From assembly GCA_030595125.1 (NCBI GenBank), contig JAUVDV010000012.1:1-64000 (forward strand): 64,000 nt of DNA, given 5' to 3'. Numbering within the stretch: position 1 is the stretch's first letter; every line of letters begins with the position of its first letter. A program made the translations under genes and the position numbers. The notes under the pieces are model-generated. The model had not been told where the DNA came from and did not search any database. It saw nothing but the letters and a program-made list of their open reading frames with translations. Positions 7,633-46,957 of this stretch are shown piece by piece. The DNA comes from Deltaproteobacteria bacterium. GTDB taxonomy: Bacteria; Myxococcota_A; Polyangia; JAAYKL01.

Positions 7633-7648
7633 CTTCCCCCTCCCGGAC

Positions 7649-9376
7649 TCAGGGCGATATCTCCTTGATCATCTCGCGGGCGTCGGTGGCTTCCGATTCG
7701 GAGGGGCCGGAGTCGAGGAATTCGCGGAGGAGTTTTACTGCTTCGGCCTTCTGTCCCATGGCCTTGTAGCAAAGGGCCAGGTTGTAGACGAGATCCGGTA
7801 TGGGCAGGAAGCTGTACGCCATGGCGAAGCGCTTGGACGCGGCCTCGAACTGACCCACGTTGTACAACTCCACCCCGATGCCGAAGAGTTGTTTGGCCTG
7901 ATCCACATTCTGCGCCTCGGGAACGATGCGCTGGTACTCGGCGAAGAAGTCCATGGCGGTGCCGAGCCTGCCGGCCTTCAGGTGCGCGAGTCCGATATTG
8001 TATAAAATATCCGGATGCTTTGCGTAGGCGAACGCCTGCTGGAAGGCGTCGATGGCCCCCTCCCATTCCCCTTGCTCAAAGAGGCGCTGTCCCATCACGA
8101 AGAACCGTCTCGCCTCGTGGGACATCACGGCGGCCTCGCTCTGAGAAAAGATGCTCTTGCCCGCCTCCAGTAACTGGATTTTCTCCTTTGCCGAGGCCAG
8201 ATCCTCGCCCTCTACGAGTTTTGCGTACTTGCGCATCAGTTTGAGGGACTTGTCGAGCTTATCGTTTCGAGCGTGGGCTCGCGCGGCCTCGTACAGCAAT
8301 ATGGGCTTTTTGGAGGTCCTGTACGCCTTTTCGAAGAGCCTCGCGGCCGATGCGTGCTTCCCGACCAGGGTGGCCAGCCACGCTTGCTCCAGGATGGTGC
8401 CCCTGGAATGGGATTTTCCCAGGGGAACGGCCTTCGCGGGCGGCAGGTCGGTGATCTTCCGGGTGGCGGCGTGGGCGGTTTGGGGCTCTGCGAGGAAGAG
8501 GGTAACCGCGATGGATCCGGTCTCGTGATCCGGGTGGTTTCCCTGGGCGACACCGATGCCGATGAAGGCGAGGGCGGGGTCGCTCGTGCGCTCGGGTATG
8601 ATCACGGAATTCAGGTCATCGGCCACCTGGAAGGAGATGGTCACCATGCCCAGCGCGAATTTCTTCGATTCGATGGCCGCCTGAGCTTTTTCGATGAGAC
8701 GATCGCTGGTCTCCTCTCGCGCCATGAATCGCTGGGCCATGTCCCTTGCCGCCTTGTCCAGGTTCTCATCCACTTTCAGGGGGGGGACGTTGTTGAGGTC
8801 GCGTTTGCGAACCGCCATGGAAACGATCTCGGCGTGGGCCTCACCGGGTTTTATTGGTGCCATCACCCTTGCAAGGTCGAGGATCACGATCCGTTCACCT
8901 CGCTTTTTGGCAATTCCGATCCCCATGTGGGTGACCCCCGAGTGCGTAATCTTGCTGATTCCAAGAGGGTCGGCGATGAGATTTTCCACCGCCTTTTTCA
9001 CGTTGGCGCCCGTCGCTCCGTGTGAGAGGGCGAACCGGGCGAAACAGCCCGACTTGATGATCCTGGGCAGGGGGGTCTCCTCCGACAACCCAACATCGGT
9101 GGACACCGCGGCGGCGGCACGGTCGCCGGCTGTTCGGTTGAGGAACGAATCAATAATCAGAGGCGGCAGATTCTCGTTGCCTCGAACCGTGTTGATATCC
9201 TCGGCGACAATGTTGATATCGGCCTGATGCCCCGCGCCGAAGGAGGTTGCTCCGCAGCCTGTGAAAAGAAACGCAGAAACAAATATCTGCAATCCAAAAA
9301 TGCAAAGACCTATGAAAAAGTTGTACAATATTGGAAATCTTGCACGGGATGTAATTATCTTTGGATATGAAATCAT
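7649..9376 (-). CDS. CAP-domain and TPR lipoprotein
   Basis: A 575-residue protein with an unusually long, aromatic-rich N-terminal region before the lipobox F-T-G-C41. Residues about 50-190 and 195-310 each resemble CAP/SCP-PR1 domains: an A-E-D-I-N-x-V-R-x-x-x-x-L-P-P-L-like opening helix, and T-H-M-G-I-G-I / F-I-G-I-G-V strands. The catalytic-looking His/Glu set of canonical CAP proteins is not clearly conserved. Residues about 330-570 are tetratricopeptide repeats (Y-E-A-A-R-A-H, Y-N-I-G-L-A-H-L-K-A-G, Y-N-L-A-L-C-Y-K-A-M-G). The only ATG giving this signal is at 9376 and shares a CATG with the divergent gene's start, so the true start may be an internal TTG. Confidence 0.7.
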   Translation of the reverse strand: MISYPKIITSRARFPILYNFFIGLCIFGLQIFVSAFLFTGCGATSFGAGHQADINIVAEDINTVRGNENLPPLIIDSFLNRTAGDRAAAAVSTDVGLSEETPLPRIIKSGCFARFALSHGATGANVKKAVENLIADPLGISKITHSGVTHMGIGIAKKRGERIVILDLARVMAPIKPGEAHAEIVSMAVRKRDLNNVPPLKVDENLDKAARDMAQRFMAREETSDRLIEKAQAAIESKKFALGMVTISFQVADDLNSVIIPERTSDPALAFIGIGVAQGNHPDHETGSIAVTLFLAEPQTAHAATRKITDLPPAKAVPLGKSHSRGTILEQAWLATLVGKHASAARLFEKAYRTSKKPILLYEAARAHARNDKLDKSLKLMRKYAKLVEGEDLASAKEKIQLLEAGKSIFSQSEAAVMSHEARRFFVMGQRLFEQGEWEGAIDAFQQAFAYAKHPDILYNIGLAHLKAGRLGTAMDFFAEYQRIVPEAQNVDQAKQLFGIGVELYNVGQFEAASKRFAMAYSFLPIPDLVYNLALCYKAMGQKAEAVKLLREFLDSGPSESEATDAREMIKEISP

Positions 9377-31745: not shown

Positions 31746-32663
31746 ATGAAATCAGTGCTTTGCTCAGTGCTTTCTTTGTTGCTCGTCTCGGTATCGATGG
31801 GCTTTGGCAATTCGGGATGTGGAGATGACGGTGATGATCGTTTCGGGGAAACAGATAGCGACGGGGATGGGGATACCGACGGAGACACGGACGGAGATTC
31901 TGATACAGATTCGGACACTGACTCAGACACGGACTCGGACGGGGACACGGATACGGAAGACTGCTACGAGGGCATCGACATAGTCTTTGTGCTCGATGTT
32001 TCCACATCCATGAGCATGATGCTCAGCGAGCTCGAGGCCGATATCGCCGAGGTATGGACTGCGGCGAACGACCTCACCCCCGAGGAAAACGACGTGTTTT
32101 TCGGGCTGGTGGTGTTCGTGGATGACTTTCTGGTGGCGAACGACGGCTCTACTCCCTACGCATCTGCAGCGGAGCTCCAGGCCGACTTCAACAGCTGGTA
32201 TACCTTTACCTCCAGCAACCAGCAGACCCAGTCCACCGCCTCGAACACGGACTGGCCCGAGAACACTCTCGATGCGCTGGTGGCGGCGGCCGACCAGTAC
32301 CAGTGGCGGGACCCGGAGACCACCTTGCGGGTGATAATCCACGCCACCGACGATACGTTTCTCGAAACGCCGTCATCTTTCTCGAGCGGAATCCAGGTTC
32401 AAAACGATTACGCGGGAACCATCGCCACCCTTCAGGCCGGAACGATCCGCGTCGCGAGCTTTGCGGCTCATCTCGGCGGGATGGCGGGCAATATCGACGT
32501 GGCGCCCGGCTTTTTCACGGATTACGGCGTCCAGTCTCCCATCCCAAACGCCACCTCCGGCAGCGTGTTTGACATCGATCTGGTAGGCGTTTCGCTCTCC
32601 CTGGCGGACGCTATCAACGACTTTGTCGCCGAGGAGTTCTGCGACGACTACGTTATCGAGTAG
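31746..32663 (+). CDS. von Willebrand factor A-domain lipoprotein
   Basis: A 305-residue protein with aaaaggag before its ATG. The signal ends in N-S-G-C25. Residues about 32-72 are an Asp/Gly/Ser/Thr linker. The remainder is a vWA domain beginning I-D-I-V-F-V-L-D-V-S-T-S-M-S, the D-x-S-x-S metal-ion-dependent adhesion site, with the further T and D residues in later loops (H-A-T-D-D). Such domains bind protein ligands through a divalent metal. The last 11 bases overlap the convergent MMPL gene. Probably surface-displayed; ligand unknown. Confidence 0.85.
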   Translation: MKSVLCSVLSLLLVSVSMGFGNSGCGDDGDDRFGETDSDGDGDTDGDTDGDSDTDSDTDSDTDSDGDTDTEDCYEGIDIVFVLDVSTSMSMMLSELEADIAEVWTAANDLTPEENDVFFGLVVFVDDFLVANDGSTPYASAAELQADFNSWYTFTSSNQQTQSTASNTDWPENTLDALVAAADQYQWRDPETTLRVIIHATDDTFLETPSSFSSGIQVQNDYAGTIATLQAGTIRVASFAAHLGGMAGNIDVAPGFFTDYGVQSPIPNATSGSVFDIDLVGVSLSLADAINDFVAEEFCDDYVIE

Positions 32664-35076
32664 GCCGCTCCACCAGAGACAGAAAAGCGGGGAAGAACAC
32701 AACCGCGGCGATGAAGGTGGCGGTGATCCCCACGACCGCAGTGGAACCGAGGGTTTGCAAACCGACGTTGTGGGAGATCATGCTCGATCCGAAGCCCACC
32801 GCAGTGGTCAACGAGGCCAGGAATGTGGCTGCTCCCGTAGTTCGAACGACGAGGGCCACCGAGCCGGGGCCTTCGTTCAGGTAGCGATGGTAGATGTGAA
32901 CTGCGTTGTCTATCCCGATGCCGATGATGCTGGGTATCACCACCATGTTGAACATGTTCAACTCCATGCCCATGGAATGGAGCGCTCCGACGAACATCAT
33001 CATTCCGACCGAGAGAGGGAATGCGACAAGGAGGGCGCGTTTGAAGCTTCGGAAATCGATCAATAGAATGAGGAAGACCAGCGCGGCGGCCACGGCAAGC
33101 AAGGGCGGTCCGTCTGCCCGAACAATACGGTAGATCCATGCCACGATGAGGGTCTCGTCCGCCATCTTGTGCTTCACCCCCGCGTCCTTCAGATTCGAGG
33201 AGAGATCGTACAACTCCTCCTCCCACGCGGCGGCCTGGTAGTCGGCGTCGTTGCGCTGGGACGGCCAGACATAGGTGATGTACTTGTCACGAGCCAGGGT
33301 CGTGAAACGGCGGCGAACCGTATCCGGCAGTTCTTTTACTTCCCAGGGTACGATTCTGACCATCCGCCTCGCCTCGATCAGCTTGTCCGCCCGGTGGCCG
33401 CCTTTTTCTGCGGCCGAGTCGAGTTTGGGATCCCACAGGATTCGCTCCAGTTGTGCGATGTATCCGGAATGGGCGTCGATGTCCGAAGGGAGGAGGCTCG
33501 ACACCGATACCACTTTCCCCATGCGCGACGCCTTGCCGTTCGACAATCCCTTGTCCCGTATCTCCAGGGCGGCCTCTTCGATCATTGCCGCATCCTTGAC
33601 GGATGAGGAAAGGAAGACCGCCGGATTGAAGCCGGCTCCCAGGTTCTCGTCCACGTACTCGAAGAACTCGGTCGCTTCAGATTTTCCCCTCAGCTGCTTG
33701 AAGTTGTTCCGAAAAGGAATGTCGGTCGCGTGGATTATACCGTAGATAGCGCCAAGGCCGATCACCGCTACGGCGCCGACAGCGAAGCGACGGGAGATCC
33801 TGGAACCCGCGATGGCGTGTGGGTCTTTTTCGGCGCTCGAGGGAACCGGTTTCCGATTGCGGTGGAAGACATAGAGGAGGGGAGGGAGAACCATGAAGCT
33901 CGAGAGCAGGGTCATGACAACCCCGATTCCGGCGATGAGCCCGAACTCCGAAAATCCCCTGAAATCGGCGATGGCAAAAGAAAAGAAGACTCCGGCGGTG
34001 GTGAGGGCGCTTGTGAGCGCCGGGGCGCTTGTGCCTTTCACGAAGGCGACGACCGCTTCGGAGATGGAAACTCCCGGGCGAAGAGACTCCTGCCGAAATC
34101 GCACGAAAAGATGGATGCCGAAGTCAATTCCAAGACCGATCAACACCGCTGCGAGAAACCCGGTGATGATGTTTACATGTCCGACGAGGAGCTTCGCCAG
34201 GGCGAATGTCCAGGCCACGCCGGAGACCAGGGCGGACCCGATAAGGAGGGGAGCGGATACGCGACGGGTGAACCCGGCCAGGATGAGTATGCCGAATACC
34301 AGGGCAAGAATCGAGGCGTTGCGCAGGTCCGAACTCATGGTGAGGTGTTGCTCCTGAACCACTTTCAGGTTGCCGGCGTACTTCACCTCGATGTTTCGGG
34401 ACGTCGGATCCAGTTCCTGGACCGCTTTCTCAATATCGTCGAGTACCCTCCTGCCCGCCTTCATGTCGGTAAACTTGATGGATGGGATGACAACGAGGAA
34501 TGTGTACTTCCCGTCCTTGCTGGTCAGGACTTCATCAAAGCCTTGCCCTCCCATTTTGGCGGTGATGATTTCATCCACCTTCTTCCAGGCGGCGTCCAGT
34601 TCCCTCTTTTCCTCCTCCTCGTCCAGGTGGAGAGCGAGGGGATTAGCTTGTATTTTCGCAATCTTGACAGCGTCTTCGACGGCCGGGACAAGCTCCTTTA
34701 GCGTGGAGATATCAGTCAGCCACAGGCCTCGATCCTTGAAAAACGCCACAGGTAACTCCAGATCGGCACATCTGATGTGGTCTACATTCTCGAGCTTTTT
34801 TTGCAGATCCTTGCCGAACTCCAGACGGGCATCCGGATCCTTGCCGCCCAGCGCGACGATGAGTTGTCTCGTGCCACCTGTCTGTTCGCGAACCGCGTCG
34901 GCGTTGACGACCTCGGGGGCGCCCACCGGAAGAAGCGCCTCGTAGCTGGAATCGAACTCCAGGGTTGATGCCGTGAGCCCGGCCGCCAGAGTGATCGTCG
35001 CCGCGGCAATGAGGAATCGCCAGGGATGAGCTACCTGCGCACGGGCCAGTTTTTCGGCTAACACGGTCAGTTTCAT
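32653..35076 (-). CDS. MMPL-family RND transporter
   Basis: An 807-residue inner-membrane protein from the ATG at 35076 (gtgagg upstream; a longer start at 35148 would add 24 polar residues). It has the two-fold RND layout: transmembrane helix 1 (residues about 20-40), an extracytoplasmic loop to about 245, five helices to about 400, helix 7, a second loop and five final helices. The G-L-G-I-D-F-G-I-H segment and the later G-I-G-I-D-N-A-V-H segment are the characteristic helix-4/10 motifs. Size and organisation resemble HpnN/MmpL lipid exporters. It is divergent from, and 162 bases away from, the lipid-synthase operon, so export of that operon's product is a reasonable inference. Confidence 0.85.
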   Translation of the reverse strand: MKLTVLAEKLARAQVAHPWRFLIAAATITLAAGLTASTLEFDSSYEALLPVGAPEVVNADAVREQTGGTRQLIVALGGKDPDARLEFGKDLQKKLENVDHIRCADLELPVAFFKDRGLWLTDISTLKELVPAVEDAVKIAKIQANPLALHLDEEEEKRELDAAWKKVDEIITAKMGGQGFDEVLTSKDGKYTFLVVIPSIKFTDMKAGRRVLDDIEKAVQELDPTSRNIEVKYAGNLKVVQEQHLTMSSDLRNASILALVFGILILAGFTRRVSAPLLIGSALVSGVAWTFALAKLLVGHVNIITGFLAAVLIGLGIDFGIHLFVRFRQESLRPGVSISEAVVAFVKGTSAPALTSALTTAGVFFSFAIADFRGFSEFGLIAGIGVVMTLLSSFMVLPPLLYVFHRNRKPVPSSAEKDPHAIAGSRISRRFAVGAVAVIGLGAIYGIIHATDIPFRNNFKQLRGKSEATEFFEYVDENLGAGFNPAVFLSSSVKDAAMIEEAALEIRDKGLSNGKASRMGKVVSVSSLLPSDIDAHSGYIAQLERILWDPKLDSAAEKGGHRADKLIEARRMVRIVPWEVKELPDTVRRRFTTLARDKYITYVWPSQRNDADYQAAAWEEELYDLSSNLKDAGVKHKMADETLIVAWIYRIVRADGPPLLAVAAALVFLILLIDFRSFKRALLVAFPLSVGMMMFVGALHSMGMELNMFNMVVIPSIIGIGIDNAVHIYHRYLNEGPGSVALVVRTTGAATFLASLTTAVGFGSSMISHNVGLQTLGSTAVVGITATFIAAVVFFPAFLSLVERPTR

Positions 35077-35110
35077 GGAGCGGGCCTCACAGTTATGGAT
35101 CGCTCTTCCG

Positions 35111-35163
35111 TCAGGCAGCTTACCGTCTGACAGCTTGACTGAGAACACCGAACGGAAAATAAC
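35111..35163 (+). promoter_or_regulatory. Candidate operator and promoter of the lipid-synthase operon
   Basis: Two imperfect direct repeats share cagctt at 35116-35121 and 35131-35136, spaced 15 bases, each preceded by a gtc-g block. The second runs into ttgact (35135-35140), which with aataac (35158-35163, 17-base gap) could form a sigma-70 promoter reading toward the operon. A regulator bound here could control both divergent units. Confidence 0.4.
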
Positions 35164-35238: not shown

Positions 35239-36030
35239 ATGATATTGATTAGATTCATACTGCTGTTTTTTCGGGCCATCATCGCGATGCTCTGGACTCT
35301 GTCTATCCATATCTTTTTTGTACGTTTGCCCCAAGTTCTGACACCCGGCAAGAGACGGATATTCGCGCGCCCCATAGCTGTCTGGGGAAGAGGGTTGGCC
35401 TGGATAATGGGCGTGCGCTTACACCGGCGCAACAAACGAGACTGGCCCATGGGCGACCTGATTGTATCCAACCACATGGGTTTTCTGGATATTCCACTGA
35501 TGCTCTCCTTTTTTCCTGCGGTCTTCGTGATCAAAATGGAGATGCGGCGGGTCTTCTATTTCGGGAAGGCGCTCGAACTCCAGGGGCATATTTTCGTCGA
35601 CAGGAAGGACGCCAAGTCCAGGCGAAAGGCGGGGGTAGCGGTGATGCGACTGTTGAAGGGCAATAACAGACTGATCGTATTTCCGGAGGGATTTGCGAGC
35701 CCCAAGGCGAAAAGGCCGGCATTTCAACCCGGGTCGCTGATAGCCGCCAAGCGCCTGCGCAAGCGCGTGGAGCTGTGTGTGATAGACTATCTCCCAGATC
35801 GCCGCTCGCTGGAATGGGACGTGAACAAGAGCACGTTTGGACAGCTGGTGAATCTGTTCGGCAGGTTCAGGACAGATATCGGCATCGAGTTTTTCCCCTC
35901 GGAACTGATAGAGGGGGATCCGTCCGAGCTGACAGTGAAGTACCATGACATTGTGGAAGAATGTCTTCACAGAAACGATCGAGAACGTGAAGAGCGCGAG
36001 GGAACCGCGCAGGCGGCGGCGAGCGAGTGA
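35239..36030 (+). CDS. PlsC-type 1-acylglycerol-phosphate acyltransferase
   Basis: A 263-residue protein with an N-terminal hydrophobic helix (residues 1-28). It has the acyltransferase motifs in order: H79-M-G-F-L-D84 (catalytic HX4D), F-V-D-R-K near residue 118, and F148-P-E-G151. These enzymes transfer an acyl chain from acyl-ACP or acyl-CoA to lysophosphatidate or another alcohol at the inner membrane. First gene of the operon. Its TGA overlaps the GTG start of the HAD gene (GTGA at 36027). In this context it may attach the chain made by the synthase downstream; a housekeeping plsC elsewhere in the genome cannot be excluded. Confidence 0.87.
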   Translation: MILIRFILLFFRAIIAMLWTLSIHIFFVRLPQVLTPGKRRIFARPIAVWGRGLAWIMGVRLHRRNKRDWPMGDLIVSNHMGFLDIPLMLSFFPAVFVIKMEMRRVFYFGKALELQGHIFVDRKDAKSRRKAGVAVMRLLKGNNRLIVFPEGFASPKAKRPAFQPGSLIAAKRLRKRVELCVIDYLPDRRSLEWDVNKSTFGQLVNLFGRFRTDIGIEFFPSELIEGDPSELTVKYHDIVEECLHRNDREREEREGTAQAAASE

Positions 36031-36716
36031 GCGAACAATGCACCAGGGGAATCATCTTCGACCTCGACGGAACGCTCTATGCGTTGCGCTGGATGAAACT
36101 GCGCATGGCTCTGTCGCTGCGCGGATCGGTCGGTGTGCTGAGAAAGCTCACGGGCGCGCGGGCCGTATTGCGGGCCGGAACCTATGCGGATCGGGAGAGC
36201 CTGCTGGCGGCGTTGTTTCAGGAGCTGGGCCGGCGAGCGGGAATAGGCGTCGAACGAGCGGAGGCCTGGTATCACGAGCGTTTCATGGAGGCGTTCGTGA
36301 AGTTGCTGGGAAAAAGCGGCCGGGCCCGGCCGGAACTCGACGGAGTGCTGACCCGGCTTCGCGCCGCGAACATCAAGCTGGCGGTGGTTTCGGACTTCGG
36401 CCGGGTGGAGGATCGTCTGAGGGCGCTTGGAATAGCGCCGGACTTGTTCGACGATGTGGAGGCCATGGAGAACTACGGTGTGCTCAAGCCCTCTCCGAAG
36501 CCGATGCTGGCGCTTGCCGGAAAATGGGGTATCGATCCGCGCGAGATGGTGATAGTGGGGGATCGGACCGATCTCGACGGCGAATGCGCGCGCGCAGCAG
36601 GAATGGAATTCTGGGGAATAACAGATCGTCCATCGAGAGCCCGAAGTGGGTTCGTGGACTGGAAATCAACCTCGGCAATGCTCGAGGCTAGAGCAAAGGA
36701 ATCGGTACGTACATGA
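36027..36716 (+). CDS. HAD-superfamily phosphatase
   Basis: A 229-residue protein starting at a GTG overlapped by the upstream stop. Motif I is F-D12-L-D14-G-T, giving nucleophile and acid/base. Motif II is V-V-S-D-F-G, motif III the Lys of V-L-K-P-S-P-K-P, and motif IV V-G-D-R-T-D-L-D. All are intact. A helical cap follows motif I, placing it in the phosphoglycolate-phosphatase-like group. The substrate is unknown; between an acyltransferase and a lipid synthase it could dephosphorylate a phosphatidate-like intermediate or a precursor. The stop overlaps the synthase ATG (ATGA at 36713). Confidence 0.85.
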   Translation: MSEQCTRGIIFDLDGTLYALRWMKLRMALSLRGSVGVLRKLTGARAVLRAGTYADRESLLAALFQELGRRAGIGVERAEAWYHERFMEAFVKLLGKSGRARPELDGVLTRLRAANIKLAVVSDFGRVEDRLRALGIAPDLFDDVEAMENYGVLKPSPKPMLALAGKWGIDPREMVIVGDRTDLDGECARAAGMEFWGITDRPSRARSGFVDWKSTSAMLEARAKESVRT

Positions 36717-39700
36717 GCCGCTACGACATCGCCATCATCGGCATGGGTTGCGTCTTTCCAAACGCCCACGATGTTCAGCAGTACTGGAAGAACATCGAGA
36801 GCGGAGACACCTATTTCAAGAAGATGCCCAATCGCCTGTGGCACATTGACAATTTCTATTCTCCCCAAAAAGGGAACCCGGAAAAATCATATACGAATGT
36901 TGGTTCGTTTGTTGAGGGTTTCGAATTTCCGTTTCTGGATTACAAGCTCCCGCCGGCTGCCATGCGAGGAGTGGACGCCACGCAGCTTATGGCCATTGCC
37001 GCCACGCGCCAGGCACTGGACGATGCCGGCATCGAAATGCGCTCGGACGAGTTGACCGATGCGGCGACGATGATCGGGGCCAGCGGTGTGGACGCCTTTG
37101 CCCACTCGGCGGTGTTCCTCAAGCGGCACCGCTTCATAAAAAAGTTAAGGCCGCTGCTCGAGAAACGAGGCGTCAAGAGCGCGCTTATCGATCGAATGGC
37201 GGATGACCTGACACAGGAACTGGACGCTCGCGGCCACATATGGGTTCCTTCCATGGCGGCGGTAGGTGCAATCTCGTCCTCGCTCTCCAATCGAGTCGCC
37301 CAGGTTTTTGGAATACGCGGTTTCAACATGACCCTGGACGCCGCATGCGGCTCGTCCTTCGTGGCCATCGATGTTGCCTGCCAGGCGCTCATGGCGGGTG
37401 ACGCCCGGGTAGCGATCGCGGGCGGAGCCGATCTGGGGGTCAATCCTCCCATCTACATAGGTTTCAGCAGAGTCGACGGTCTGAGCGCTTCGGGAATGTC
37501 CAACACCTTCGATCACACGGCGGACGGCCTGGTGATCGGCGAGGGTGTCGGCATGCTCGTGCTCAAGAAACTCGAAGATGCCATCGACGACGGCAACGAT
37601 ATCAAGGCAGTGATTCGCGGTGTGGGATCCTCCAGTGACGGAGCCGGACAGGCTATCTACGCGCCTTCAGCCTCCGGCAGGGCGGAGGCGCTGCAGGCGG
37701 CTCTCGCCAGCGCGCAGATAGAGCACTCAGAAGTCCAGTATCTGGAAGCCCACGCAACCTCCACCATAGTGGGTGACGCCAACGAATACGATTCCATTTC
37801 CATGGTTTACGGAAAGGACAGAAATGCGCCCGAGCCCCTGTATCTGGGCAGCGTCAAGAGTCAGATAGGCCATCTCAAGGCGGCTGCGGGAGTGGCGGGA
37901 ATGATCAAGACGGTGCTCGCCATGAACGAGGGAAAGATCCCGCATCTTCCCAGGTTCACCAAGCTCACACCCGGAGCCACCCTTCCCAGTGAGCATCTGG
38001 CCATCCCGACCGAGATCAAACCCTGGCACAAGGGCAAGGATGGAATGCGTATCTCGGCGATCACCACCAGTGGATTCGGCGGGGTCAACTATCACGCCAT
38101 CCTCGAACAGGGAGATTCGTATACACGCCCGCAACAACGGCCAGAGATCTCTCGCGAAGTGGCCATTGTCGGTGTGCAGGTGCGGGTAGCCGGAGCGGAT
38201 ACGCCCGAGAAATTCTGGGACAATCTTGTCGAGGGCGTCGATGTCTTCACCGATGTCGACCCCAAGGATCACGGGTGGGAGGACTGCTACGAAACGGGCC
38301 CCCAAAACGAGATAATCAATACAAATGTGGTGTCCAAAATTGAGCCGTACAAGGTTAACCTGCTTCGCCACAAGATCTTCCCAAATTCGGTCTCTCAGAT
38401 ATCCCCCACCCAGATTCTGGGTCTCGATCTGGCAGACAAGCTTCTGACGTCAGCCGGTTTTACCCTGGAGGAGCCCAAGAAAATCGGTGTGAGCGTCGGC
38501 TGTATGCACGACGATTATTTCCCGACGATCTTTCCGCCCATGATCACCGACGAGTACATCGACGCGCTCTTCGCGTGCGCCTCGGCCGGGGAAGTGGATG
38601 CGTCGGTTCTCAAGGAGTGCTGCGCTGCGGCGAAGGAGGAGATCAGGGGCGAGTTTCCCCCGGTCACCGAGCACACTCTGCCTGGCTGGATGACAAACGT
38701 CACCGCCGGAAGGATCGCGAACAGGCTCAACTTGCACGGCCCCAACTTCACGGTCGATTCCGCCTGCTCATCCAGTATCGCTTCGTCATTGCCCGCCATG
38801 TACCAGCTCATGTACGGCAACGTCGACCTGATGATCTCCGGTGGTCTCAACAGGCAACTCAGCGACACGTTCACTTCCGGTGTCTGCGCACTCGGCGCCG
38901 TGGCCAAGAGGATCGCCCGGCCGTTCGACAGGGAAGGGACCGGATATCTGATAGGCGAGGGCGGTGTGCTCTTCCTGCTCAAGCTTCTGAAGAACGCCCA
39001 ACGCGACGGCGACGATATCTTCGGGGTGATTCACGCGATCGGGGGATCTTCGGAGGCGGACAGCAAGTCCATGGTGGCGCCCACGGAGAAGGCTGTTTCG
39101 CGTGCCATCAGCAATGCGTTCCGGAACACAGATATCGATCCGAGTGAGATTGGCATTTCCGAAACCCACGGATCAGCGAACGAATTGTCGGATATCGTTG
39201 AGGCTCAGGGCCTGGCAAAGGGGCTCAGAGCTGGTGACGGCGGCGATCCTGTCCAGATGACGGCTGTGAAATCCCACGTGGGTCATTTATACGGCGGATC
39301 CGGCGCGGCCTCGATCTTCAGCACAATTCAGTCGCTTCGAACCGGGATTGTACCGGGCATTCGACACCTCGAGAATGTCAGACCTGAGATCCTGGAGGTT
39401 GCGGACAAGGTGGAGCCCAGAAAAGAAACCGGACCTCTGGACAAGAAAATCACAATGGGAGGCGTGAACTCCCTGGGGCTTGGCGGCGCTAGCTACTTTG
39501 CCGTTGTCTCCGCAGGTGGGGAAGCGGGGGAGCCGGTTCTGGCGGGGTCAAAAGTTCGGGAGGGAGACGAGGGCCAGGACGATGTGTTCCTCTGTCTCGC
39601 AGAGTCCGAAAAGAGTTTTGCAGCGGCGCTGGGCCGGGCTCTTTCCCAGAATCCAATACCCGAGGTCATCTCTGAGGGTGCGGATGTCAATGCCAGGATG

Positions 39701-42700
39701 ACGGTGTCGTTCGAGGATCAAAAGTCTCTTCGAACCAAGCTCAAATCTGCACTCAAGATGATCGAGGGCGGGCACGGATTGAAACCGCTCGAGTCCCAGG
39801 GGCTCTTCTCTGCGGATATTCCCCGGGAGGGCGAAGAAGAGAATCTCGTATTCTGTTTCCCCGGGCAAGGGGTTCACTACATCACAATGGGGCGACATCT
39901 CTACGAGGAGGACCCCAACTTCGCAAATGTTGTCGATGAGGTTCACAAGCTCGCGATGAGCGAGTTCGGATTTGATTTGCTTGGACACATTTACGGAGAT
40001 GAAGACGACGAGCAGCTCAAGAAAAATCTGGGCACCCTGGTCGGCGCTCAGACATCGTTGTTCGCCGTTGAGCTTGGCGTGGCGAAGGTCCTCGAAGCCA
40101 AGGGTGTCCGTCCGGATGTGATGGTGGGCCACAGCTTTGGAGAGATCTCGGCGCTCGCTGTAGCAGGAGTCTGGGACATCGAGACCGCCTACAAGGTGGT
40201 TGTCGAGCGGATCAAGGCCGCTCAGCTGATAGCGGAAGGCGGCGGTCCCGATCTGGGCATGGCCAGCGTAGTGTGTTCGGAGGATCAACGTGATGCCATC
40301 CTCGGCCTGGTGGGTGACAAGGTATTCCTCACCAACGTCAACGCTCCGGGGCGTTTTGTCCTGGCGGGAGAAAAAGAAGCCGTCAAGCGAACTGTCGTTG
40401 TGGCCGAGTCCTTCGGAGTGGAAGCCAGACTTCTGCCAATAGGAGCCGCGTTCCATTCCAAGTACATGGAGCCGGCGAGAGAACCTTTCCGCAAGGCGCT
40501 CGAGAAGCTGCCGTGCTCCCCGCCAACCATTCCAATAATATCGACGATCACCGGCACGTATGTCGATGCCGCGAACCTGGACAGCATTTCGCTGGCCAGG
40601 CATCTGTCACAGCAGCTGATCACCCCGCTCAACCTGCCCAGGGAGATCAACAGGCTGTACGAGGATGGGGCCAGGACCTTCCTGGAAGTCGGACCGGGAT
40701 GGGCCATGACCAAGATGATAGCGGCGATCCTGGAGGGCAAGGCTTACAACTCCGCGCCTACCCTCCATCCGAAGGTCGGCGATGTAGAGACATTCAGACG
40801 GGCGAGGGCGCTTCTCATGGCCGTCGGCCGCATCGGATCGGCAGCGGAACGCCAGGATGTACCCGGGATGTTCTCGCCCGATTTCCTGCAGTACATGAAA
40901 GAGAACGAGCCCTCCGTGCTCTCGCTGATCGAGGAGGTTCACGGGCGGTTTTTGTCCGGCATATTGACGGCAAGCAAGCCAAAGGCTCCCACAGTCGCCA
41001 GACCGGTGGCGGCAAGTATCGTCGAGCCCAAAGGGAGCATTGTAAAATCAACGAAACCACCTGCAGCAGTTCAGGCAAAGCCCGTGAAGGCAAAGAGCGG
41101 CGGCGGAGGTGTGGACAAGTGGATCGAGCGGCTTCGCGACAAACTGGTTACAACCACCGGTTACCCGCCGGAGATGCTGGAAGTGGATCTGGATCTGGAG
41201 GCTGATCTGGGCGTGGACTCGGTTCAGCGCGCGGAGATATGGGTTTCGCTGACCACGGAGCACGATCTGGACGCGGAGGCACGGCCTTCGGGGGCGCGCA
41301 CGATCGCTCAACTGGCGGAGATCCTCGCGCAGATGGCGGGGGGCGACGGTCCCGGAGACGAAGTGTCGGCAGACAAGGAGCCGGCGGACAAAGAGCCGGC
41401 AAACAAAGTGTCAGCGGACAAATGGATCGAGCGGCTTCGCGACAAACTGGTCACAACCACCGGTTACCCGCCGGAGATGCTGGAAGTGGACCTGGATCTG
41501 GAGGCTGATCTGGGCGTGGACTCGGTTCAACGCGCGGAGATATGGGTTTCGCTGACCACGGAGCACGGTCTGGACGCGGAAACGCGGCCTTCGGGGGCGC
41601 GCACGATCGCTCAACTGGCAGAGATCCTCGCGCAGATGGAGGGGGGCGACGACTCGGCGAGCAATGAGCCGGCGGAGATTCCGATGGAGGAACCTCCCAG
41701 CACCCCGGAGCCGGTAGGTGGCGGTATCCAGCTGGACAAGTGGATCGAGCGCCTTCGCGACAAGCTGGTCACAACCACCGGTTACCCGCCGGAGATGCTG
41801 GAGGTGGATCTGGACCTGGAGGCTGATCTGGGCGTGGACTCGGTTCAACGCGCGGAGATATGGGTTTCGCTGACCACGGAGCACGGTCTGGACGCGGAGG
41901 CACGGCCTTCGGGGGCGCGCACGATCGCTCAGCTGGCGGAGATCCTTGCGCAGATGGAGAGGGGCGACGGTAGCGGCAAGAATGACGCGGCCGAAAAAGC
42001 GACGGCTGGAAGTAGTGCCTCGATAGATGATACGAGCGCCTGCGGGCTTTTCCTTGGTGGAAGCGATCCCATTGATCAAAAGGACATGGAGGAGTTCTCC
42101 TGCAAGAGAGTGCTCATCGTGGTGGGTGACGGCGATACCACCGGCGGCAAGCTCAAGAGACGATTCCTGAAGCGCGATATCGAGATGACCACGGTCAAGG
42201 TCTCCACCCTGTCGGGTCAAATGGCTGCGGGGGACGTCAGCGCTCTGCTTGAAGGATGCGATACCGTCGTCTACGCGGCGCACTCCAAGCTACTGGATAT
42301 TCCTCGCAAGGGCGAGAGCATGCGCCTGGCGCTGCAAGAGGCGACCACCGATCTCTACCAGGCTTTCCGCGCGCTTGTTCCGGTACTGGAAGAGCGCCCG
42401 GCCAGGTTGATCTTCCCGGTTTCCATGGACGGAGCTTTCGGAGTCTCCTCAAGCGGTGAACGGTTGCTCGGAGCGTTCCCCTCGGGCTTCGTGCGCAGCT
42501 TGCGCAGGGAGTTGCCCGACTGCAAGTTCCAGTTGATCGATGCTGGCGAAATTTCATGGGCAGACGCAATCGATCAGAACATCGAGTTGATGGGGCCCGG
42601 TCTGGAAATCGGAATGAGACCGTCCGGGCGGGTTGTTTCCAAAGTGTCAGTCATGTCCCCGTCCCCGGAATATCGTCAGCCTCTGGACAGGGGCGATCTG

Positions 42701-44416
42701 GTGGTCGTAACCGGCGGAGCCAGGGGAATCGTGTTCGAGTGCGTGATGGAGCTGGCCAGACAGACCGGGTGTCGTTTGTTGCTAACGGGCAGGACGGATC
42801 TCCCGATGGGTCGACCCGAGTGGCTCTCAACGGATTCGGGCGACATTGACAAAGTCGTACGGGATATTGAGATCAATCTGGTCAAACAGGATGGGCTCAG
42901 GCTGCCCGAAGCAAAACGCGTGGGACGGAATATCCGATCCCAGTGGGAGCTCTCACGAAACCTGGACCGGCTGGAGAATGCCGGAATAGAGGCCCGGTAC
43001 GAGAAGTGCGACGTATCTGACCGGGAAGCGTTCAGCAAGTTGCTGAGGCAGATATTGTCAGAAGATGTCGTCCGAGGCGTTGTTCACGGATCGGGAGTTC
43101 AAAAGGCCAAGCTGGTCACCGAGCTGACGGACGAGGCTATCGCCCAGACGATGGACACCAAGCTCACGCCCGTGTTCACAATGATCGATGAACTCGATTG
43201 GGCAACAATAAAAATGTTCTCGGGATTCGGATCCATTGCCGGGTTGTTCGGCAACTCCGGACAGACCGATTATGCCCTTGCCAACGACATGCTGGCCTGG
43301 ATCGTCACTGGTCTTCGCGCCGCACATCCCGGATTGCACGCCCAGACGATCGAATGGACGGCATGGGTGGGCACGGGAATGGTGAGCGTGGAGGAGAGCA
43401 AGCGCTTCGAGCAAGCCGGACTGACGCCGGTGAAGGTGGACGAAGGTGTTGCCTTTTTCATGGAAGGCCTGACCGGAAGCGCCCACAGTAGACTCGCGGT
43501 TTTCAACCAATCGGCAGAGTTCTCGGAGATTCGAAAGATCGGAGAGCACCCCGCCGCCGCGCGTCCCAGGGCCAGGCTGGTCGATCCGGCTGATGGAGAC
43601 AAGGGAGCCCGGGCCAACTTCTCCCTGGAGCAGGACGTGTACATCAATCAACATCTGGTCAAGATGGAACCGGTGGTGCCTGGCACCTTCGTTACCGAGA
43701 TATTCGCGGAAGCCATCGAGGGTGAGGGAATGACGCCCACAGATATCCAGTTCAGGCGACCTCTGCAGCTGCGCGGGGATGAACTGGAGGTGGAGATCAT
43801 TCGCAAGGACGACCTCATGATGCTGGTGCCGGCCCAGAGACCGGAGCTGGGAGACAAGGGCCTTGCGAACCTGGCGTACGCCACGTGCAAGCTCGTTAGT
43901 GGCGATCTCCTGGACGATGAAGGGTTGGTCATTTCAAAGAAGGACTTCAAGAGTCTGCGCGAAGAGGGGTCCTCTACGGGGGCGTCATTCTACAGCATGC
44001 TGGACTCCAAGTTTTCCGGCGCCCTCAAGACGGGTCCGGTGTTCAGAGGACTTCGCTCCACCATGGAGAAGGGCGACATGTTCTATAGCGCCGTTACAAT
44101 CACAGACGAGGCGGCGGCTTTGTTGGAGGTTCCCGGGGAGTTCGTCTTCAACCCGGTGCTTGCTGACATGGCGGTGCAGGTTGCTGCGGCATGGGCCATG
44201 ATTCGGCACGATGTGATGGAGATCCCCTTCGAGATAGGTGCGCTTCATGTCGCAAGGGATCTGAGCGGCCGGGATGCAGTCGTCATTTGTCGCGCGCTGG
44301 AGATAACCGCCGAACAGTCCGTCATGGACCTGGCGGTGAGGGATCTGGACGGAAATCTGATCCTGGGAATGGAACGACTGGTTCTCAAGGCGATTGCGCC
44401 CAGGGAGGAAGACTAG
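36713..44416 (+). CDS. Iterative type I lipid/polyketide synthase (KS-KS-AT-ACP3-KR-DH), PfaA-related
   Basis: A 2567-residue multidomain synthase. KS1 (about 1-460) opens with I-A-I-I-G-M-G-C-V-F-P-N-A like PfaA and has Cys212, His347 and His387. KS2 (about 480-930) also has a full triad: Cys685, His819 and His858. The acyltransferase (about 1040-1360) has Ser1141 (G-H-S-F-G) and His1248. Three near-identical carrier domains carry phosphopantetheine serines 1503, 1604 and 1710 in G-V-D-S-V-Q. The ketoreductase (about 1985-2270) has T-G-G-A-R-G-I, Ser2174 and Tyr2187. A C-terminal hotdog dehydratase has His2314. No enoyl reductase or thioesterase is on the chain. Repeated condensation, reduction and dehydration would give an unsaturated acyl chain; the product is unknown. 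Confidence 0.93.
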   Translation: MSRYDIAIIGMGCVFPNAHDVQQYWKNIESGDTYFKKMPNRLWHIDNFYSPQKGNPEKSYTNVGSFVEGFEFPFLDYKLPPAAMRGVDATQLMAIAATRQALDDAGIEMRSDELTDAATMIGASGVDAFAHSAVFLKRHRFIKKLRPLLEKRGVKSALIDRMADDLTQELDARGHIWVPSMAAVGAISSSLSNRVAQVFGIRGFNMTLDAACGSSFVAIDVACQALMAGDARVAIAGGADLGVNPPIYIGFSRVDGLSASGMSNTFDHTADGLVIGEGVGMLVLKKLEDAIDDGNDIKAVIRGVGSSSDGAGQAIYAPSASGRAEALQAALASAQIEHSEVQYLEAHATSTIVGDANEYDSISMVYGKDRNAPEPLYLGSVKSQIGHLKAAAGVAGMIKTVLAMNEGKIPHLPRFTKLTPGATLPSEHLAIPTEIKPWHKGKDGMRISAITTSGFGGVNYHAILEQGDSYTRPQQRPEISREVAIVGVQVRVAGADTPEKFWDNLVEGVDVFTDVDPKDHGWEDCYETGPQNEIINTNVVSKIEPYKVNLLRHKIFPNSVSQISPTQILGLDLADKLLTSAGFTLEEPKKIGVSVGCMHDDYFPTIFPPMITDEYIDALFACASAGEVDASVLKECCAAAKEEIRGEFPPVTEHTLPGWMTNVTAGRIANRLNLHGPNFTVDSACSSSIASSLPAMYQLMYGNVDLMISGGLNRQLSDTFTSGVCALGAVAKRIARPFDREGTGYLIGEGGVLFLLKLLKNAQRDGDDIFGVIHAIGGSSEADSKSMVAPTEKAVSRAISNAFRNTDIDPSEIGISETHGSANELSDIVEAQGLAKGLRAGDGGDPVQMTAVKSHVGHLYGGSGAASIFSTIQSLRTGIVPGIRHLENVRPEILEVADKVEPRKETGPLDKKITMGGVNSLGLGGASYFAVVSAGGEAGEPVLAGSKVREGDEGQDDVFLCLAESEKSFAAALGRALSQNPIPEVISEGADVNARMTVSFEDQKSLRTKLKSALKMIEGGHGLKPLESQGLFSADIPREGEEENLVFCFPGQGVHYITMGRHLYEEDPNFANVVDEVHKLAMSEFGFDLLGHIYGDEDDEQLKKNLGTLVGAQTSLFAVELGVAKVLEAKGVRPDVMVGHSFGEISALAVAGVWDIETAYKVVVERIKAAQLIAEGGGPDLGMASVVCSEDQRDAILGLVGDKVFLTNVNAPGRFVLAGEKEAVKRTVVVAESFGVEARLLPIGAAFHSKYMEPAREPFRKALEKLPCSPPTIPIISTITGTYVDAANLDSISLARHLSQQLITPLNLPREINRLYEDGARTFLEVGPGWAMTKMIAAILEGKAYNSAPTLHPKVGDVETFRRARALLMAVGRIGSAAERQDVPGMFSPDFLQYMKENEPSVLSLIEEVHGRFLSGILTASKPKAPTVARPVAASIVEPKGSIVKSTKPPAAVQAKPVKAKSGGGGVDKWIERLRDKLVTTTGYPPEMLEVDLDLEADLGVDSVQRAEIWVSLTTEHDLDAEARPSGARTIAQLAEILAQMAGGDGPGDEVSADKEPADKEPANKVSADKWIERLRDKLVTTTGYPPEMLEVDLDLEADLGVDSVQRAEIWVSLTTEHGLDAETRPSGARTIAQLAEILAQMEGGDDSASNEPAEIPMEEPPSTPEPVGGGIQLDKWIERLRDKLVTTTGYPPEMLEVDLDLEADLGVDSVQRAEIWVSLTTEHGLDAEARPSGARTIAQLAEILAQMERGDGSGKNDAAEKATAGSSASIDDTSACGLFLGGSDPIDQKDMEEFSCKRVLIVVGDGDTTGGKLKRRFLKRDIEMTTVKVSTLSGQMAAGDVSALLEGCDTVVYAAHSKLLDIPRKGESMRLALQEATTDLYQAFRALVPVLEERPARLIFPVSMDGAFGVSSSGERLLGAFPSGFVRSLRRELPDCKFQLIDAGEISWADAIDQNIELMGPGLEIGMRPSGRVVSKVSVMSPSPEYRQPLDRGDLVVVTGGARGIVFECVMELARQTGCRLLLTGRTDLPMGRPEWLSTDSGDIDKVVRDIEINLVKQDGLRLPEAKRVGRNIRSQWELSRNLDRLENAGIEARYEKCDVSDREAFSKLLRQILSEDVVRGVVHGSGVQKAKLVTELTDEAIAQTMDTKLTPVFTMIDELDWATIKMFSGFGSIAGLFGNSGQTDYALANDMLAWIVTGLRAAHPGLHAQTIEWTAWVGTGMVSVEESKRFEQAGLTPVKVDEGVAFFMEGLTGSAHSRLAVFNQSAEFSEIRKIGEHPAAARPRARLVDPADGDKGARANFSLEQDVYINQHLVKMEPVVPGTFVTEIFAEAIEGEGMTPTDIQFRRPLQLRGDELEVEIIRKDDLMMLVPAQRPELGDKGLANLAYATCKLVSGDLLDDEGLVISKKDFKSLREEGSSTGASFYSMLDSKFSGALKTGPVFRGLRSTMEKGDMFYSAVTITDEAAALLEVPGEFVFNPVLADMAVQVAAAWAMIRHDVMEIPFEIGALHVARDLSGRDAVVICRALEITAEQSVMDLAVRDLDGNLILGMERLVLKAIAPREED
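41111..41959 (+). repeat. Three tandem near-identical carrier-domain units
   Basis: Units at about 41111-41338, 41416-41641 and 41733-41959 encode the three acyl-carrier domains of the synthase. They are almost identical in DNA as well as protein, including synonymous positions, while the linkers between them differ in length and sequence. The pattern indicates recent duplication or ongoing gene conversion. Tandem carrier domains are typical of PUFA synthases, where copy number raises yield. Confidence 0.9.
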
Positions 44417-44419
44417 ATC

Positions 44420-46957
44420 ATGATGGGAGGGGGCAACAACGAAGGGAATGGATCTTCCCTCGAGGGATACGATGTGCTCGTGATCGGCGCCGGCTTAGGA
44501 GGGCTCACCTGCGCCACCGAGCTGGCCAGGCAGGGACTCAGGGTCTGCGTCTTTGAGCAGCACAGGGTGGCTGGGGGTTATGCCCAGGCGTTTCGTCGAA
44601 AGGGTTACCATTTCGACGTTTCCCTGCACTACACCGGCGGTCTTGATCCCGGCAGTATGGCACACGGGATTCTCAAGAGCCTGGGTGTTTTCGACAAACT
44701 GCGGATTGTACGCTCCAGGAGCCTCTTCACTGCCGAGTTTCCCGGGCTTTTCGTGGACATGCCCAATGATCGCGATAGCATCATCAACAAGCTAGTGGAG
44801 CTGTTTCCCCATGAAGAGCGGGGGATCAAGTCTCTCTTCGAATTCATGCCCAGGTTGAAGCACGACGTGATCGGACCCCACATCGTAACGGATTTTGACA
44901 TTCACAAACAAGATACTCTGAGCGCTCACTATACGGAGAGCATCTTTGCGGAGGTACTCAAGGAGCACGTTACTGATCCCAAGCTCCTGGCCGTGCTGGG
45001 CCAGATGTGGATGTACGTGGGTCTGCCGCCGGACAGGTCTTCGGCCAACTTCACCACCTGCGTCTTTTCGGCGGGCTGGCTCGAAGGCGCCTATCATGTC
45101 GTTGGTGGTGGTGGAGCCATCGTTCGATCCATGGTGGAGAAACTCCGTGAGTTCGGAGGGGAATGTCTGCCGAAAACTCCGGTGGTCCGCATATTGATGG
45201 AGGACGGTGTTGCTAGCGGAGTCGAGCTTTCGAGCGGCCGCGTCGTCAAGGCGCCGACGGTGATCAGCGCGGTGAGTCCGACACAAACCTTCTTCGACCT
45301 TCTGAGCGAGGACGCGGTGTCCAAGATCTACAGGTACAGGTTGGAGAAGATGGAGCCGTCCCTGTCCATGTATACGACTTACCTGGGGCTCGATTGTGCG
45401 CCTAGCCGTGTGGGAATACCCATGGGTAACTTCTTCTACAACCACGGCTTCGACTGGAATGAATCCTATCGGCGCATAATGGACAACGAGATTGAGCATA
45501 CAGACTGGTGCATCACCAGCAACGAAGGTCTCGATGATACAATGTGCCCCACAGGTGGCGGAATTGTTTCCGCAGTGGAGTTGACCCCGGCGGATGACTG
45601 GCTCGATCTGGACAATGATGCATACGCCGAAAGAAAAAAACAGGTGGCCCAAAAGCTGTTGAACAAGTACGAGCAGCGGTTTCCGGGCCTCAAGGGCCAC
45701 GTGGTCGTACACGAAATGGGCACACCCAGGACGATCGCCCGTTTCAGCAGGAATCACCGAGGGGCGGTATGTGGCCTGGCTCAGAGCCTGGACCAATCCA
45801 ACAGCAAACGCCTCGTGAACAGGACACCGATACCGGGGCTCTTTCTTACCGGCGCCTGGACCTGGTCGGGGGGTGGGTACGAGGGCGCCATGATGTCCGG
45901 AGTTCAGACCGCATCTGCGGCCATGGCGGAAACCAGGTCCCCGTACAAGGTATCCAAGATCGCGCTGGTCGAAGATATATCGAGGGAATCGTCAAAAAAC
46001 GGCGAGGTCGTTCGTGCATCGGCGGTGGATCGCGTACTCAGCGAAGAGGTGGAGCGGGAACACTATCGCCATCGCCTCAGGGTGCGTGTTTACGGTGACG
46101 ATCTCAACTCACGCGGTCACGCGGACGCCTCCTCCTACCTTCGCTACATGGATCGTGGGAGAGTGGAGGCAATAGAAAAAATATGCGCCGATGCCGGTGA
46201 TGAGTCATGGCTGACAAAATATGTGGTCAATGTTTATCGGATAGAAGCGAGGCTGGCCACAATCGTGGGGCTCGCTGATGAACTCGAGATACGAACCGGA
46301 TTACGCCGTGTGACAACACACCGGGCGTCCTTCGATCAGCGGATTGTCAACGTGAAGACGGGGGATCTGGTTGTGGACGCAAACGTGGAGGTGCTTTTCC
46401 TCGACAGGGAAATGAACCTCATACCTGCTCCTGCAGAGGTTTTGACGTGCAAACATGAGATTCCAGGGCTTTCCGAGGAAAGGTCGGAGTCAGTTCCGTT
46501 CGGCATCGAAGAGCAGTTTCCATTCCGGACGCCTTTTAGGGTGTACTTCGAGGATACTGATACTCAGCAGATCACCTACCATGTTTCCTACGCCAGGTTC
46601 TGCGAGCGGGCGCTCTTCGAAATGGTGCGGGCTGTCTGGGCGGATCTGAGCGCGAGCGCATGGATGGCCAAGAACAGGAGCAACGTCTCCCGGATGGACC
46701 TGCGGTATCTCAACTCATCGAAGTTGGGGGACAGGCTGGAGGTTTGCACCGGTATCCTGGCGATCACCGAGGAAAAGATCACCATGGGGCAACGGATTAT
46801 CTTTGCGGGAACCAACAAGGTTGTCGTGGACGCAGCCACGGACGTGGAATTCCGCGACGAGAACGAGAGAATCGTTCCTGTTCCCAAGCAGATCCTCGAT
46901 CTGAGCAAGGCAAACCTGACCAGCACCAACGGTGGCAAGCCCAAGAGATCTCCATGA
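44420..46957 (+). CDS. FAD desaturase/saturase-like oxidoreductase fused to two hotdog thioesterase domains
   Basis: An 845-residue protein. Residues about 12-520 are a CrtI/retinol-saturase-type flavoprotein: V-I-G-A-G-L-G-G-L near the start, V-A-G-G-Y-A-Q-A-F, and the C-terminal F-L-T-G-A-W-T-W-S-G-G-G-Y-E-G-A-M signature. Two 4-hydroxybenzoyl-CoA-thioesterase-like hotdog domains follow, about 545-680 (R-G-H-A-D-A-S-S-Y-L-R-Y) and 695-830 (F-E-D-T-D-T-Q-Q-I-T-Y-H-V-S-Y). The flavin part could isomerise, saturate or desaturate double bonds of the chain made by the synthase, which lacks an enoyl reductase. The hotdogs could release it or act as extra dehydratases. I know of no characterised protein with this fusion. 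The stop overlaps the next ATG. Confidence 0.85.
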   Translation: MMGGGNNEGNGSSLEGYDVLVIGAGLGGLTCATELARQGLRVCVFEQHRVAGGYAQAFRRKGYHFDVSLHYTGGLDPGSMAHGILKSLGVFDKLRIVRSRSLFTAEFPGLFVDMPNDRDSIINKLVELFPHEERGIKSLFEFMPRLKHDVIGPHIVTDFDIHKQDTLSAHYTESIFAEVLKEHVTDPKLLAVLGQMWMYVGLPPDRSSANFTTCVFSAGWLEGAYHVVGGGGAIVRSMVEKLREFGGECLPKTPVVRILMEDGVASGVELSSGRVVKAPTVISAVSPTQTFFDLLSEDAVSKIYRYRLEKMEPSLSMYTTYLGLDCAPSRVGIPMGNFFYNHGFDWNESYRRIMDNEIEHTDWCITSNEGLDDTMCPTGGGIVSAVELTPADDWLDLDNDAYAERKKQVAQKLLNKYEQRFPGLKGHVVVHEMGTPRTIARFSRNHRGAVCGLAQSLDQSNSKRLVNRTPIPGLFLTGAWTWSGGGYEGAMMSGVQTASAAMAETRSPYKVSKIALVEDISRESSKNGEVVRASAVDRVLSEEVEREHYRHRLRVRVYGDDLNSRGHADASSYLRYMDRGRVEAIEKICADAGDESWLTKYVVNVYRIEARLATIVGLADELEIRTGLRRVTTHRASFDQRIVNVKTGDLVVDANVEVLFLDREMNLIPAPAEVLTCKHEIPGLSEERSESVPFGIEEQFPFRTPFRVYFEDTDTQQITYHVSYARFCERALFEMVRAVWADLSASAWMAKNRSNVSRMDLRYLNSSKLGDRLEVCTGILAITEEKITMGQRIIFAGTNKVVVDAATDVEFRDENERIVPVPKQILDLSKANLTSTNGGKPKRSP

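Follow-up and report, generated by a model that had tools for sequence, protein, structure and literature searches.

A chain-length factor (CLF) is understood as a ketosynthase (KS) that has lost its active site, and the origin of this division is an open question. The window analysed here, a stretch of 64,000 nucleotides (positions 1 to 64,000 of contig JAUVDV010000012.1, assembly GCA_030595125.1, from a Deltaproteobacteria bacterium), encodes a synthase that begins with two KS domains in direct succession, and the question that it raises is whether the second of these is a CLF or a second active ketosynthase. A didomain of CLF geometry with two intact, diverged sites would be a direct test of what the dead partner gave up, and on a single chain with one AT, one KR and one DH, convenient for experiments, any effect on chain length or unsaturation could be assigned to one KS. 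A preliminary description of the window had drawn attention to the interval 36713-39510, which covers the KS1-KS2 didomain, and had called both domains fully catalytic.

Domain organization and distribution

The synthase is a 2567-amino-acid open reading frame with the order KS1-KS2-AT-ACP-ACP-ACP-KR-DH. The features of the locus are as follows.

32653..35148, minus strand: HpnN-like RND transporter, which many relatives also have next to the operon
35239..36030, plus strand: 1-acylglycerol-3-phosphate acyltransferase-like gene (Pfam, NCBIfam)
36027..36716, plus strand: HAD-family phosphatase gene that overlaps the start of the PKS
36713..44416, plus strand: type I iterative PKS/PUFA-like synthase (Pfam, NCBIfam, motif positions)
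36713..38110, plus strand: KS1 (aa 1-466), with C212, H347, K382, H387, E358 and gate F455; DAACGSS, EAHATST, GFGG
38111..38158, plus strand: KS1-KS2 linker, 16 residues (aa 467-482)
38159..39520, plus strand: KS2 (aa 483-936), with C685, H819, K853, H858, E830 and D827; HGSAN (819-823), GLGG (L923)
39848..40810, plus strand: AT, malonyl type, with GHSFGE and AAFHS motifs (Pfam)
41111..41338, plus strand: ACP1, Ser1503, DLGVDSV at aa 1498
41414..41641, plus strand: ACP2, DLGVDSV at aa 1599
41732..41959, plus strand: ACP3, DLGVDSV at aa 1705, PP-binding match
42701..43366, plus strand: KR, with VVVTGGARGI and GQTDYALAN (Pfam)
43610..44404, plus strand: DH (PS-DH), NQHLVKMEPVVPGT (Pfam)
44420..46957, plus strand: CrtI/carotenoid-isomerase-like FAD protein with two hotdog thioesterase domains (4HBT_2, YbgC-like), adjoining the PKS in relatives too

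Pfam places two N-terminal and two C-terminal ketoacyl-synthase stretches on the synthase together with PP-binding and one AT, one KR and one PS-DH, the same single set that had been counted from the sequence. The best NCBIfam match is omega_3_PfaA at 823 bits, below the cut-off of 1010, and the PfaA-type KS-MAT-ACPn-KR core is present in the order AT-ACP3-KR-DH. DLGVDSV is found three times, and hence three ACPs are assigned; these repeats (41111-41959) are almost identical, and relatives carry anywhere from 1 to 4 ACPs.

Scanning 84,980 species genomes returned 25 loci in total, every one from an uncultured assembly and most of them labelled Deltaproteobacteria or Myxococcota, with a few Sumerlaeota or Salinivirgaceae; 379 genomes drawn evenly from the phylum gave three strong matches, the source genome among them. 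The KS1-KS2 synthase family is rare, comes from uncultured bacteria and is undescribed in the open-access literature searched. Within the taxonomic family of the source genome, most genomes carry KS2 relatives at 57-98% identity with KS1 directly upstream. The order HAD-KS1-KS2-AT-ACP(1-4)-KR-DH followed by CrtI-hotdog-hotdog recurs, with the acylglycerolphosphate acyltransferase often upstream and the RND transporter nearby. An assembly artefact or decayed gene is ruled out, since about 20 loci, spread over many genomes, share this order. A near-identical operon order is also found in three loci from bins labelled Sumerlaeota and Salinivirgaceae (L052, L054 and L059), which may reflect gene transfer or mis-binning. 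In five loci KS1-KS2 stands alone as a protein of approximately 1000-1050 amino acids with neither AT nor ACP, and no pathway was recognised among the neighbours of these genes. We note that two of them adjoin genes whose bacterial products carry LDL-receptor class A repeats, 6 in one case (L063:4598-6706) and 13 in the other (L064:4121-6763), both on the minus strand.

Catalytic residues of the two ketosynthases

The triad of KS1 consists of Cys212 (ACGSS), His347 (EAHAT) and His387 (IGH) and that of KS2 of Cys685 (ACSSS), His819 (ETHGS) and His858 (VGH), all six positions being exactly those given in the preliminary description. The catalytic lysines, K382 in KS1 and K853 in KS2, complete both sites, and the Cys-His-His plus Lys set of elongating ketosynthases (KAS I/II-like) is present in each. 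Across 23 homologous didomains, in which KS2 identity ranges from 48 to 98%, C685, H819, K853, H858, E830 and D827 of KS2 are invariant, as are the catalytic C, H, K, H and E positions of KS1. With 16% of the columns in the KS2 alignment invariant, the chance of this for five columns named beforehand (C685, H819, K853, H858 and E830) is about 1e-4. By a rough Nei-Gojobori estimate against the nearest relative, dN/dS is approximately 0.07 for KS2 and 0.13 for KS1. KS2 is under strong purifying selection, and the alignments support the view that both triads are real, old and maintained by such selection. One relative (L033:12583-13953, minus strand, genome G010) has a single in-frame stop inside KS2, from sequencing error or decay.

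KS1 retains the HATST loop and the GFGG gate, whereas KS2 has neither the HGTxT loop nor GFGG: it carries HGSAN where other KSs have HGTxT or HATST, and GLGG (L923) where elongating KSs have GFGG, both changes being fixed in 23/23. In FabF it is the GFGG phenylalanine that acts as the gate (PMC7138838), and in KS2 this residue is Leu throughout the family. With both the loop and the gate replaced in all members, KS2 may lack elongation activity. Aliphatic gate residues do also occur in the reference set, in a trans-AT KS (GIGG) and a KSQ (GMGG), and GVGG KSs exist too; as there are KSs with GIGG or GVGG, the change at the gate alone does not disqualify KS2 as an elongating KS, and to judge from these comparisons the gate and loop changes are a specialisation and not proof of inactivity. 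The claim that both domains are fully catalytic holds for the intact triads but goes beyond the sequence in its wording, and because HGSAN and GLGG are lineage-wide, catalysis by KS2 is something that we infer.

Predicted pairing of KS1 and KS2

An AlphaFold model of the didomain (mean pLDDT 90.3, pTM 0.93) had as its first match in the PDB the PfaC KS-CLF of Moritella marina (6riw), with 957 aligned columns, TM 0.82/0.83 and 22% identity; the other PDB matches listed align one KS each (TMq 0.40-0.44). A second model, of a stand-alone paralogue, also matched 6riw (pTM 0.92, TM 0.82), the two models being not fully independent as their underlying alignments share members. Both AF2 models predict two KS folds on one chain as a pseudo-dimer that matches 6riw over its full length, a pairing that could come from training, as known KS dimers and 6riw may have guided AlphaFold. 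The linker is 16 residues long in 22/23 homologues, and the distances among KS1 and among KS2 sequences mirror each other (r 0.92, 0/5000 permutations). This fixed linker, the co-evolution of the two domains and the existence of stand-alone KS1-KS2 paralogues indicate that the didomain is one unit. A heterodimer-like pair had been raised beforehand as a question for modelling, and the models support a placement in which KS2, with its triad intact, would occupy the CLF slot of an intramolecular KS-CLF-like pseudo-heterodimer. Our preferred reading, to which we assign a probability of about 60%, is that KS1-KS2 is a KS-CLF-type pseudo-heterodimer with two non-identical active sites that heads an iterative polyene/lipid synthase.

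KS2 and chain-length factors

The main alternative is that KS2 is a chain-length factor in practice, shaping the KS1 tunnel, with a centre that is structural or weakly active. The geometry of the CLF slot in the predicted models and the fixed HGSAN and GLGG deviations would fit this. Loss of the Cys is, however, what marks real CLFs: the residue is kept in 0/30 Pfa-type CLFs sampled from the same phylum (28 Glu, 1 Asp, 1 Pro; the His/Lys columns of these sequences, many of them short, aligned less reliably), and the CLF of 6riw has Glu at this position. The dead second unit that defines the PfaC/HglC type of KS-CLF didomain, and that the open-access literature on such didomains describes as inactive, is not found here, as KS2 keeps C685, H819, K853 and H858 in 23/23. 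A CLF with a chance Cys is ruled out by this conservation together with the absence of Cys from the sampled CLFs.

The trees bear on the same alternative from both sides. Under LG+C20, KS1 and KS2 each form a clade with 100/100 support on a long stem, and KS2 stands beside active iterative KSs (95/84), apart from the CLFs. Approximately unbiased (AU) tests rejected a grouping of KS2 with all CLFs (p 0.015) but not one with the PfaC CLFs alone (p 0.27), and in a quick tree with 13 CLFs KS2 joined these with weak support (SH-aLRT 73). In a second dataset, trees that placed KS2 with iterative KSs or with KS1 scored slightly better than those that placed it with CLFs. Sisterhood of KS1 and KS2 was neither supported nor rejected (AU p 0.31 in the first dataset and 0.59 in the second), and a grouping of KS1 with the PfaC KS gave p 0.27. 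A recent tandem duplication is ruled out by the mutual identity of 25% and the separate, long-stemmed clades. The long branches leave KS2 with no firm tree position in the two datasets; the trees disagree on its exact place, and the outcome that the preliminary description had named as contrary to its view, KS2 firmly within the CLF clade, was not obtained. With all five catalytic positions invariant and the all-CLF grouping rejected, we regard a CLF role for KS2 as unlikely and retain the pseudo-heterodimer with two active sites.

Classical CLFs do occur in the source genome, where two neighbouring type II proteins, each a KS-CLF fusion with a dead CLF half, lie on contig C26 (L073:4594-7062 and 7063-9366); a PDB sequence search with another CLF of this genome (L074:3782-4849) gave no matches. 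A PKS of the same class in genome G089 (L082:3126-10244, minus strand) has a second KS-like domain (aa 1123-1485) on a very long branch, in which the Cys (NAACASTT) and both His residues are kept and the loop, HETYT, is strongly altered.

Comparison with known systems

The PfaC KS-CLF didomain resembles KS1-KS2 in having two KS folds per chain joined by a short linker, and in fused PfaBC/HglC proteins an AT follows the KS-CLF as it follows KS2 here (PMC3098273). It differs in that the PfaC CLF has broken His/Lys positions besides Glu for Cys, at sites where KS2 keeps Cys-His-Lys-His, and in the PfaD ER and FabA-type DH of PUFA (Pfa) synthases, a pair that is absent here, the sole DH of the PKS being the PS-DH. 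By the models, KS1-KS2 would thus be a variant of the KS-CLF kind, like it in geometry and without its defining dead second unit. PUFA synthases share out the chain lengths between two active KSs, which lie on different polypeptides and of which one is paired with a dead CLF (PMC9702510; PMC12895367), whereas a single pair would contain both active sites here. Type R secondary-lipid synthases (KS-MAT-CLF-ACPn-KR) likewise combine a KS, a CLF-like unit, MAT, several ACPs and KR on one polypeptide; their second unit, named a CLF, stands after the MAT (PMC3098273), and KS2 follows KS1 directly with its catalytic residues intact. Aryl polyene synthesis by ApeO-ApeC and ApeR is likewise a polyene pathway with two working KSs, although these are separate type II proteins and ApeC, a shortened CLF, provides no second active site (PMC8358021). 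The type Q polyene PKS RerA/RerB of Rhodococcus erythropolis PR4 shares AT-tandem ACP-KR-DH, the lack of an ER and an adjoining thioesterase; RerA is an iterative enzyme (AT-ACP2-KR-DH) with a single KS that makes C22 nonaenes, and its partner protein is PPTase plus TE in place of CrtI and two hotdogs (PMC11563203). In the open-access literature searched, no adjacent pair of KSs that are both active is described.

A model for the synthase

We propose that KS1 folds back onto KS2 in solution to form a KS-CLF-type pseudo-heterodimer, in which the complete Cys-His-(Lys)-His centre of KS2 in the CLF slot would give two active sites for the same ACP array. KS1, with its canonical HATST and GFGG, would most likely be the general iterative condensing enzyme, and KS2, with HGSAN and GLGG, would most likely serve as a second, specialised site for condensation (or for priming/decarboxylation) and may also line the KS1 chain tunnel as a CLF does. 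The two sites may, as the preliminary description suggested, act on chains that differ in length or reduction state. In each cycle malonyl would be loaded by the single AT and the chain then processed by KR and DH. It is possible, although we put this forward tentatively, that the didomain represents a new KS class: an obligate intramolecular heterodimer whose two protomers are each catalytic and specialised, perhaps a state between the homodimeric KS and the KS-CLF with one dead partner, and which supplies a single ACP array within a one-chain polyene/lipid synthase.

Another possibility is that KS1 performs all condensations and that KS2 is either a priming/decarboxylating unit, which with its Cys in place would take a KSQ-like role and make the starter from malonyl-ACP, or a chain-editing transacylase/hydrolase. 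The synthase has no dedicated loading domain, KS2 retains the His/His/Lys needed for decarboxylation, and its aliphatic gate residue has counterparts in the reference KSQ and trans-AT KS domains. KSQ domains, however, have Gln for the Cys that every KS2 keeps, and priming by decarboxylation of malonyl-ACP is already within the scope of PfaA-type KSs (PMC12895367), so that a separate priming unit is not required; we consider this role for KS2 improbable beside the pair of condensing sites proposed above. The chains of type I synthases usually dimerise through their KS domains, and KS1 and KS2 could in principle be ordinary KSs forming separate homodimers for different substrates, with no KS-CLF-like pairing, but the single compact KS-CLF arrangement in both models and the linker fixed at 16 residues make this very improbable.

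Operon and predicted product

The AT carries GHSFGE and the AFH motif expected for malonyl, and the AT, KR and DH motifs are intact in relatives. A PfaD-type ER was not found above the cut-off in the genome assembly, and one PPTase is encoded elsewhere in the genome. Without an ER, the chain is expected to remain unsaturated; it would be released by the hotdog domains and then modified or used by the CrtI-like oxidoreductase and the acyltransferase. The malonyl-type AT, KR and DH, the lack of an ER, the hotdog thioesterases, the CrtI-like oxidoreductase and the acyltransferase lead us to predict, by analogy with RerA, that the product is likely to be a polyene or other unsaturated chain or lipid. 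The CrtI-like FAD protein and the two hotdog domains would fit release and double-bond chemistry, and this CrtI-hotdog-hotdog neighbour suggests that uncultured Myxococcota-related bacteria make an unknown polyene or unsaturated lipid. The fusion itself (44420-46957) is unusual, and in one related locus (L060) the hotdog domains occur without CrtI.
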